DNA of 64,000 nucleotides from Alcanivorax sp. (GTDB lineage Bacteria; Pseudomonadota; Gammaproteobacteria; Pseudomonadales; Alcanivoracaceae): assembly GCA_013823245.1 (NCBI GenBank), contig PNLU01000001.1, positions 29,031 to 93,030 on the forward strand, read 5' to 3'. A program made the translations under genes and the position numbers. Under the pieces are notes generated by a model. It made no database searches and was not told where the DNA came from. It saw only the letters and a list, made by a program, of their open reading frames with translations. This document shows positions 17,017 through 40,330 of this stretch, piece by piece; positions within the stretch are counted from its first letter, which is position 1; every line of letters starts with the position of its first letter.

Positions 17017-17886
17017 ATGAGTGCCACAGAAATTCGCGAACTGCGCAACGCGCCCGCCATGCTGCCCCTGTTTGCCAAAGCCGTGGTGCGGGCCGGTGTG
17101 AAACCCGGCAAGAACCCGGAACTGCCGAACAAGGGTGTGCGCCTGAGCGATATCATGCTCGATGCGAAACATCTGGCCACTTACCGCAAGGTATGCGGTT
17201 TCAAGGCCGACGGCTACCTGCCGGTGACCTATCCGCACCTGCACGCGCACCCGCTGTTCATGAGCCTGCTGCTGGACAAGGACTTCCCGTTTGCCGCCAT
17301 GGGCCTGGTGCATGTACGCAACCGTATCACGCAATACCGCCGTATCCAGGAGCGCGAGCAACTGGATGTGGAATGCCGCTTTGGCGAGCTCACGCGGGTG
17401 GCCAAGGGCTACGAATTCTCGATCCTGACGCATATCAGCACCGGCGGCGAGCTGGTCTGGGAAAGCGAATCCACCATGTTCCGCCGGGGCGGTGGCACGG
17501 GTGAGGACAAGGGCAGCAAGAAGCCGGGGGCAGCAGAGCCGGTAACGAATGCCACCGAGTGGAAGGTCCCGGGCAGCATGGGCCGCCAATACGGTGCCGT
17601 ATCGGGCGACCGCAATCCGATCCACCTGTATCCGCTGACCGCGAAGCTGTTCGGCTTCAAGCGTCAGATCGTGCACGGGATGTGGTCCAAGGCGCGCTGC
17701 CTGGCCGAGGTAAACGATCAGTTGCCGGAGAACGGTTTCAGCGTGGACGTGCAATTCAAGTTGCCGATGTTTATTCCGGCGACGGTAAAGTTCGCGCAGG
17801 AGAAGCAGGGCTCGGGGCTGGATTTTCGCCTGCTGGCCGCGGATGGCGTAAAGCCGCACCTCAGTGGTGAGATTCGCGCGCTCTGA
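17017..17886 (+). CDS. MaoC-like (R)-specific enoyl-CoA hydratase/dehydratase
   Basis: Hotdog fold signature YGAVSGDRNPIHLYPLTAKLFGFKRQIVHGMW. Confidence 0.9.
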   Translation: MSATEIRELRNAPAMLPLFAKAVVRAGVKPGKNPELPNKGVRLSDIMLDAKHLATYRKVCGFKADGYLPVTYPHLHAHPLFMSLLLDKDFPFAAMGLVHVRNRITQYRRIQEREQLDVECRFGELTRVAKGYEFSILTHISTGGELVWESESTMFRRGGGTGEDKGSKKPGAAEPVTNATEWKVPGSMGRQYGAVSGDRNPIHLYPLTAKLFGFKRQIVHGMWSKARCLAEVNDQLPENGFSVDVQFKLPMFIPATVKFAQEKQGSGLDFRLLAADGVKPHLSGEIRAL

Positions 17887-17898
17887 AGCGTAGTTTGG

Positions 17899-18024
17899 GT
17901 GGTTATGGCCCGAGGGGGCGGGTATCCCCTTTCAGGACACGCTGCAAGTACATCCATGTAAGCTCGCGTTCGGCATCCATGCCTCTCGACGGTCCTGAAA
18001 GGGGATACCCGCCCCCTCGGGCCG
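17899..18024 (-). repeat. Hairpin element A: perfect 32-bp inverted repeat around a 53-nt conserved centre with two GGA-loop mini-hairpins (sense strand = minus)
   Basis: Left arm 17907-17938 GGCCCGAGGGGGCGGGTATCCCCTTTCAGGAC, right arm 17992-18023 exact reverse complement; mini-hairpins at 17972-17983 (GGCAUGGAUGCC on minus) and 17949-17960 (UACAUGGAUGUA on minus). Confidence 0.93.
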
Positions 18025-18099
18025 TCACGTTCAGAGCAGTCTTCCGATACCCAGCCAGCGGAACGCGTGGTTCTTGCTCGAAATCAAACCTGCCCGCGT

Positions 18100-18122
18100 C
18101 CGGGTTCTCTGGAGAAACCCGG
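18100..18122. repeat. Short inverted repeat in the spacer between elements A and B
   Basis: CCGGGTT-CTCTGGAGA-AACCCGG. Confidence 0.75.
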
Positions 18123-18125
18123 CCC

Positions 18126-18157
18126 GCAGCCCGTCGAGCTCTTGACGAGCGGGCTGC
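18126..18157. repeat. Second inverted repeat in the A/B spacer
   Basis: GCAGCCCG-(16 nt)-CGGGCTGC. Confidence 0.7.
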
Positions 18158-18163
18158 GCGTGA

Positions 18164-18292
18164 CGGCCCTCGGGTGGCGGGCATGGGTGTTCAGGACTGT
18201 CGAGAGGCATGGATGCCGAACGCAAGCCCCCAGGGACGGGTTCACGGCGTGTCCTGAACACCCATGCCCGCCACCCGAGGGCCATAACCACC
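18164..18292 (+). repeat. Hairpin element B: perfect 33-bp inverted repeat around a 53-nt conserved centre with two GGA-loop mini-hairpins (sense strand = plus)
   Basis: Left arm 18165-18197 GGCCCTCGGGTGGCGGGCATGGGTGTTCAGGAC, right arm 18251-18283 exact reverse complement; mini-hairpins 18206-18217 GGCAUGGAUGCC and 18229-18240 CCCAGGGACGGG. Confidence 0.93.
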
Positions 18293-18298
18293 ACAACC

Positions 18299-18730
18299 TC
18301 AAGGAACGGAAGTAAAGCTCACCATCCACTGAATACCAAACGCATCCACGCAGATGCCGAACAGCTTCGCCCACTCGGTGGCTTGTAACGGCATGCTGAC
18401 CTCGCCGCCCTCGGCCAAGGCGCCATGCACGCGGCGCGCCTCCTCTTCCGAATCAGCCTCCAGCGCAATAAAAAAGTTGTTGCCCGCCACAAAACGCCCA
18501 GTGTGCTCCGCGCTGATCACGTCCGTACCCATCAGGATATTGTCGCCCCCCAGCGGCAGCCCGATATGCGCAATCGCATCCAGCTTGTCCTCTGGCGCAC
18601 CCATGGGGTTGCCCGGAAAATCCCGGTAGCGGATCACCTCGGTGAAATCGCCACCAAAGATACTGCGATAGTGGTTGAACGCCGCTTCAGTAGTGCCTTT
18701 GAAATTCAGATAAGGATTGGCCATTTTCAT
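18299..18730 (-). CDS. VOC/PhnB-like glyoxalase-fold protein
   Basis: MANPYLNFKGTTEAAFNHYRSIFGGDF...WAKLFGICVDAFGIQWMVSF, typical of PhnB/3-demethylubiquinone-9 methyltransferase-like VOC proteins. Confidence 0.88.
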   Translation of the reverse strand: MKMANPYLNFKGTTEAAFNHYRSIFGGDFTEVIRYRDFPGNPMGAPEDKLDAIAHIGLPLGGDNILMGTDVISAEHTGRFVAGNNFFIALEADSEEEARRVHGALAEGGEVSMPLQATEWAKLFGICVDAFGIQWMVSFTSVP

Positions 18731-39917: not shown

Positions 39918-40046
39918 GGTGGTTATGGCCCTCGGGGGGCGGGTAAGGGTTTTCTGGACACGCTGCAAGTACGTCCCTGTAAGCTCTCGTTCGGCATCCA
40001 TGCCTCTCGAAGGTCCAGAAAACCCTTACCCGCCCCCCGAGGGCCG
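39918..40046 (-). repeat. Hairpin element C: perfect 33-bp inverted repeat around a 53-nt conserved centre with two GGA-loop mini-hairpins (sense strand = minus)
   Basis: Left arm 39927-39959 GGCCCTCGGGGGGCGGGTAAGGGTTTTCTGGAC, right arm 40013-40045 exact reverse complement; mini-hairpins 39993-40004 (GGCAUGGAUGCC on minus) and 39970-39981 (UACAGGGACGUA on minus). Confidence 0.93.
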
Positions 40047-40099
40047 TCACGTGCAGCCCGATTAACAACTTCCAGCCAACCGAGAGTTTCGTTCAACCA

Positions 40100-40184
40100 G
40101 TAGGCTGGGCTGAGCGCAGCGAAGCCCGGCATCAGGCAGAATTTCCCACGAGCAAGACGTCCAACCTGCCGGGCTTCGCGCTGC
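40100..40184. repeat. Imperfect inverted repeat in the C/D spacer
   Basis: GCAGCGAAGCCCGGCA (40116-40131) versus TGCCGGGCTTCGCGCTGC (40167-40184), 2-nt indel. Confidence 0.65.
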
Positions 40185-40217
40185 GAAGTGGCAAGCGTAC
40201 GGTTGGCACTGAATTGA

Positions 40218-40330
40218 GGCCTCGGTGCGGGGCAAGCCCTTCCAGAAGTGTGTGAGGCAGGAAGCCGAACGCAAGCCTACAGGGATGTATTTACGGCGGC
40301 TTCTGGAAGGGCTTGCCCCGCACCGAGGCC
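40218..40330 (+). repeat. Hairpin element D: perfect 31-bp inverted repeat around a 51-nt centre with two GGA-loop mini-hairpins (sense strand = plus); divergent subfamily
   Basis: Left arm 40218-40248 GGCCTCGGTGCGGGGCAAGCCCTTCCAGAAG, right arm 40300-40330 exact reverse complement; mini-hairpins 40256-40266 GGCAGGAAGCC and 40278-40289 UACAGGGAUGUA. Confidence 0.92.

Follow-up and report, generated by a model that had tools for sequence, protein, structure and literature searches.

The window analysed here is a 64,000-nucleotide stretch of an Alcanivorax sp. genome (G000). Within it, a MaoC-domain gene identified as an open reading frame (17017-17886, + strand; Pfam PF01575, E=1.1e-12) converges on a called gene of the VOC/glyoxalase family (18299-18730, - strand; Pfam PF00903, E=4.4e-6). 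The former stops at 17886 and the stop codon of the latter is at 18299-18301. As the initial annotation had described, the gap between them is filled by two elements in opposite orientation, A and B, each of which was recognized both as an inverted repeat and by the covariance model R1, which was built from an alignment of 24 sequences (A2). Unit A (17907-18023, GGA-sense on the - strand) has arms at 17907-17938 and 17992-18023, and unit B (18165-18283, GGA-sense on the + strand) has arms at 18165-18197 and 18251-18283. Both enclose a loop of 53 nt, and all arm pairs (32/32 in A and 33/33 in B) are Watson-Crick. Each loop contains two small hairpins. Those of A, on the - strand, are P3 (UAC-AUGGAU-GUA, 17949-17960) and P2 (GGC-AUGGAU-GCC, 17972-17983), with CsrA-type loops whose ANGGA is essentially invariant in 57 relatives; those of B, on the + strand and read with the alignment of relatives, are P2 (GGC-AUGGAU-GCC, 18206-18217) and P3 (CCC-AGGGAC-GGG, 18229-18240).

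A linker of 141 nt (18024-18164), partly conserved between copies, separates A from B; it starts with GTCACG and ends with CGTGAC. The outer flank of A, GGTGGTTAT (17898-17906; ATAACCACC on the GGA strand), is shared by most copies with a 53-nt loop and matches the outer flank of B, ATAACCACC (18284-18292). Both of the matching ends noticed earlier are thus real (GGTGGTTATGGCCC and GGGCCATAACCACC): the right one lies exactly at 18279-18292, whereas the left one occupies 17898-17911 and not 17899-17912. This match belongs to the repeat itself, as GGA-sense copies elsewhere have CGTGAC before the stem and ATAACCACC after it.

The fold of the gap had a z-score of -12.6 with none of 100 shuffles equally stable, and the paired structure of A and B is far beyond chance. 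The composite was the only strong structure within the gap; no GC-rich hairpin followed by a T-tract, as in an intrinsic terminator, was found in 17850-18350, and no match to a sigma-70-like promoter was found in the linker or the composite. Given the strands of A (-) and B (+), a read-through transcript from whichever gene encounters the near copy in antisense and the far copy in GGA-sense orientation, as had been proposed. A second composite of like kind lies at 39927-40330 in the window, consisting of 39927-40045 (- strand, 53-nt loop) and 40218-40330 (+ strand, 51-nt loop). It has the same polarity as A/B, mixes units of the two loop lengths, and sits in a gap between tandem genes.

Conserved fold and the folded strand

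Each copy consists of an outer stem of about 32 bp, free in sequence and almost perfectly paired, and two small hairpins with A-N-G-G-A loops. In alignment A2, all named pairs were intact; 25 of the 40 carried two-sided changes and no pair had a one-sided change, indicating that the arms are free in sequence but remain paired. In this family P2 was GGC-AUGGAU-GCC, and the variants of P3 included UAC-AGGGAU-GUA and CCC-AUGGAC-GGG. When 57 elements from many gammaproteobacterial genera were compared, 97.2% of the cells were paired, 39 of 40 pairs showed two-sided changes, and the covariation score was 0.995, as against 0.208 when shuffled and at most 0.175 when slid. The loops held most of the conservation: apart from one position conserved in 56/57, the A, G, G, and A of both loops were invariant in these elements. 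The base that separates A from GGA was free, and the closing pair was C-G in 55 and 56 of the 57.

Stem mismatches read on the GGA strand were 35 G-U versus 4 A-C across genera (p=3e-7) and 16 G-U versus 4 A-C within Alcanivorax, with a small sample bias in these counts because R1 scores G-U slightly higher than A-C. Equal numbers are expected if mutation is symmetric; the excess of G-U therefore indicates that the GGA strand is maintained as a single-stranded fold. The molecule would be RNA or, less likely in our view, single-stranded DNA, for which the same bias is expected.

Distribution, pairing, and placement of the copies

Using the MaoC/VOC gap as a BLAST query, 92 matches were obtained in its own genome, including matches to the whole composite. 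Among the matches listed for R1, 80 were in the Alcanivorax genome (some being one copy on both strands) and 96 in the sister genome (G005); these copy numbers come from model searches of fragmented assemblies in which some copies are counted on both strands and a capped set of candidates is scored. Sites occupied in the sister map beside contig ends of G000 (196 contigs), which suggests that the repeats break this assembly and that the copy number is underestimated. R1 copies also occurred outside the genus, both in two further genera of its family and in further families of its order, and 30 of 185 sampled Gammaproteobacteria genomes carried an R1 element. No R1 element was found in three congeners (G002, G004, and G006), and this patchy presence within the genus means that the element is dispensable.

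The type with a 53-nt loop has a conserved leader, TTTTCCATTCT...GTGGTGGTTAT as read on the gene strand, and a trailer, GTCACGCGCAGCCCGG..., while the type with a 51-nt loop carries another pair of flanks. We also observed a second element type of unrelated sequence (hairpins GGCCATGGATGGCC and GCCCATGGATGGC; L006 1728-1840, L007 1320-1432, and L008 1320-1432), which has a twin-GGA design too, scores below the threshold with RF01731, and partners with the 53-nt-loop type.

Adjacent pairs from the two Alcanivorax genomes (19) and inverted pairs from other genomes (11) all had their GGA strands outward, 30 of 30 in total. This uniform polarity in the genome, its sister, and other genera, together with the whole-composite matches in the genome, upholds the earlier view of A and B as one composite unit. 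The sole non-inverted arrangement was a direct array in another genome (G008, L110 1274-2504), with about six elements in the same orientation at a spacing of about 227 nt.

Genes around the elements were called with a simple codon-usage caller. Of 62 Alcanivorax element sites, 30 were convergent, 27 tandem, and 5 divergent, whereas gaps in general were 23 convergent, 119 tandem, and 56 divergent; hence convergent gaps made up 48% of element sites versus 12% of all gaps, a four-fold enrichment, and divergent gaps 8% versus 28%. Between the stem and the stop codon of the gene facing it, the median distance was 39 nt. The bias toward gene ends was weaker in other genera (14 convergent, 31 tandem, and 13 divergent).

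At the MaoC/VOC gap of the sister genome the composite is kept, with only the outer stem tips left of the collapsed A hairpin and with a B that belongs to the 51-nt-loop subtype; the composite is therefore older than the split from the sister. In A. limicola and another congener, the same gap has only a simple GC-rich inverted repeat. From these versions of the gap, the elements are replaceable, with no clean insertion scar. The initial annotation had set a precise empty site against gradual sequence drift as possible outcomes, and neither was seen: the sister strain and A. limicola gave no precise empty site, and in the sister the collapse of A and the change of subtype in B were not gradual drift. 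Most element sites are common to the sister genome and others lie at contig ends. Several orthologous copies differ in blocks, which would be consistent with exchange between copies.

Some further observations were made at related loci. Long-stem hairpins seem to be lost between the sisters by internal collapse that leaves the stem tips (L163/L025, and the window gap/L042). A sister locus considered as an empty site (L153) gave no clean test since its right-hand gene differs. In G006 and G004, the region after the MaoC gene (L045 2537-3121, and L046) appeared by eye to contain, in place of the A/B-type elements, a RAYT-type transposase ORF and REP-like repeats.

Kinship with TwoAYGGAY and predicted CsrA binding

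The TwoAYGGAY motif (Rfam RF01731) was reportedly described by Weinberg et al. in 2010, and to our knowledge it has so far had a CsrA hypothesis only, without a confirmed role or strand. It was suggested as a CsrA-binding RNA (PMC4333381), and Rfam places it in the Csr-Rsm binding clan, CL00106 (PMC5753348). In the search with RF01731 (gathering cut-off, 43 bits), A and B were unmatched up to E=10; R1-family copies elsewhere scored 51 bits in the sister genome, 44.3 bits in A. limicola, and 47.6 and 43.5 bits in other genera, and both GGA loops of the sister and A. limicola copies fell on the loops of the model. Both units have two loops of the AYGGAY type on an enclosing stem, namely AUGGAU and AUGGAU in A, and AUGGAU and AGGGAC in B. 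As judged from these sequence comparisons, A and B would best be explained as a divergent, high-copy form of TwoAYGGAY RNA. A perfect stem of about 32 bp, high copy number, inverted pairing with fixed outward polarity, and placement after stop codons were not found described for TwoAYGGAY in the literature searched, and the loop sequence as a literature query returned unrelated hits only. At the gathering level, Rfam detected only two tRNAs in the whole window. Weak microRNA matches were generic long-hairpin hits, and in neither of the two genomes did a hit of the RsmZ model reach the threshold.

SELEX of CsrA ligands gave the consensus RUACARGGAUGU, whose GGA is presented by a hairpin loop (PMC4347634, PMC7652899). 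A, B, and their relatives carry GGA in hairpin loops of this kind, and the P3 hairpin is commonly UACAGGGAUGUA, which matches the consensus. About 20 nt separate the two GGAs of each unit, a spacing that falls within the 10-63 nt reported for dual-site binding by one CsrA dimer, with an optimum above 18 nt (PMC7652899). The csrA gene is present in the Alcanivorax genome and in all element-bearing genomes tested except three drafts that are 67-88% complete; it is near-universal in element-free genomes too, so that the co-occurrence is uninformative. The invariant loops show the recognition pattern of CsrA/RsmA, and A and B are probably RNA elements that bind a protein of the CsrA family.

In the mechanism we propose, the GGA strand would be transcribed. 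At this locus, that would happen mainly when transcription runs on past one or the other of the convergent genes, and each read-through RNA would carry the far unit in sense. One CsrA/RsmA dimer could then clamp both loops of one unit, and the copies may serve as dispersed sites of CsrA docking or titration, linking CsrA to antisense RNA or to read-through at 3' ends. The step in which read-through RNA acts as a sponge is, on its own, only tentatively put forward; alternatively, the composite may be a 3' region controlled by CsrA. Counting against the CsrA reading is the fact that, beside genes, the GGA strand mostly runs antisense to whichever gene is closer. The failure to find a promoter-like site in the composite and the patchy presence within the genus also count against it.

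Alternative explanations and known systems

The placement of the elements might instead reflect a bidirectional 3'-end module, in which the long stems protect or define both mRNA 3' ends by blocking exonucleases once Rho has ended transcription, a role that has been proposed for REP/BIME elements, and the loops are secondary. Placement is the part of this earlier proposal that stood: the elements are enriched in convergent gaps and depleted in divergent ones, the median distance from the stop codon is 39 nt, the composite is the sole strong structure in its gap, and the orthologous gap of A. limicola holds a simple GC-rich inverted repeat. Its termination part was not supported: a U-tract is missing, and gene ends beside elements (11 of 60) did not have significantly fewer intrinsic terminators than those in other convergent gaps (10 of 36). 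An apparent replacement of intrinsic terminators by elements, seen against 8 control gene ends, disappeared once the control was extended to 400 kb. Moreover, a plain stem would have no need of two invariant ANGGA loops, the bias fades in other genera, and hairpin A has been lost at the MaoC/VOC site in the sister. We consider this explanation unlikely.

The initial annotation had also suggested a mobile-like unit, and a palindromic repeat of the MITE or REP kind, either selfish or mobile in the past, could insert, or survive, just after stop codons; its GGA strand would be the substrate of a single-stranded DNA recombinase and its loops a coincidence or a host-derived mimic. High dispersed copy number, patchiness within the genus, the sharp spacing between stop codon and stem, and the blockwise differences of same-site copies, as if exchanged, all fit such a repeat, and recombination sites in single-stranded DNA likewise typically fold in a strand-specific manner. 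Nevertheless, searches of 72,556 plasmid records, 50,697 phage records, and viral contigs found no element. The Y1 transposase, the family screened for the cognate transposase and autonomous copy of a MITE, has a single gene per genome, away from the elements, and the long-spaced pairs examined contained neither a transposase between the copies nor an autonomous version. Neither a clean empty site nor a target duplication was found in the sister genome, in which sites were mostly occupied or at contig ends, or in A. limicola; mobility of the unit was thus not borne out. The conserved ANGGA and the stems covarying across genera fit a protein ligand better, and a selfish repeat appears rather doubtful, though worth weighing.

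Under the preferred reading as predicted CsrA-binding RNA, the outward pairing recurring in many related bacteria suggests dozens of scattered predicted CsrA docking sites at gene ends. The covariation, the invariant ANGGA loops, and the strand-specific wobble bias open the strand and ligand of TwoAYGGAY to direct tests. A new question arises from the constant outward orientation of the pairs and from their expansion into dozens of gene-end copies: why paired predicted CsrA sites sit where only read-through RNA has them in sense. Speculatively, and with a low probability in our estimation, Gammaproteobacteria with expanded TwoAYGGAY pairs may possess a genome-wide CsrA decoy network, whose 3'-end modules expose a high-affinity clamp on read-through RNA from convergent gaps. 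If so, the modules would be silent in properly ended mRNAs, and free CsrA would report read-through and antisense transcription genome-wide.

Several known systems resemble the A/B family in part. As an analogy in mode of action only, the attC sites of integrons fold on one strand into a long hairpin free in sequence, with an orientation fixed relative to the preceding gene, and the A/B family shares these properties; unlike attC, it is dispersed in inverted pairs with ANGGA loops, and neither an integrase nor a cassette array was seen. REP/BIME elements and REPINs, with their RAYT transposases, are likewise palindromes scattered among intergenic regions, and inverted pairs of them are frequent. 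REP elements are characterized as palindromes of 20-40 bp with a GTAG or CGTC tag (PMC3733652), a tag that is absent from the ends of the A and B units. The units described here also differ in their length of 117-119 bp (arms of 32-33 bp), conserved loops, and free stems, with no link to RAYT found. The antagonist sRNAs RsmX/Y/Z and CsrB/C dock CsrA/RsmA dimers on several GGA hairpin loops, as is predicted for A and B. Each of them, however, is encoded by a single-copy sRNA gene that has its own promoter, and carries many loops, whereas a unit of the A/B family has two loops, a genome contains dozens of such units, and no promoter was found. TwoAYGGAY shares with the A/B family the outer stem, the two hairpins with AYGGAY-type loops, and a conserved GAGC...CGGCGU core on the same strand; in contrast to the motif as described, the A/B copies have a perfect stem of about 32 bp, a high copy number, outward inverted pairing, and a position after stop codons.
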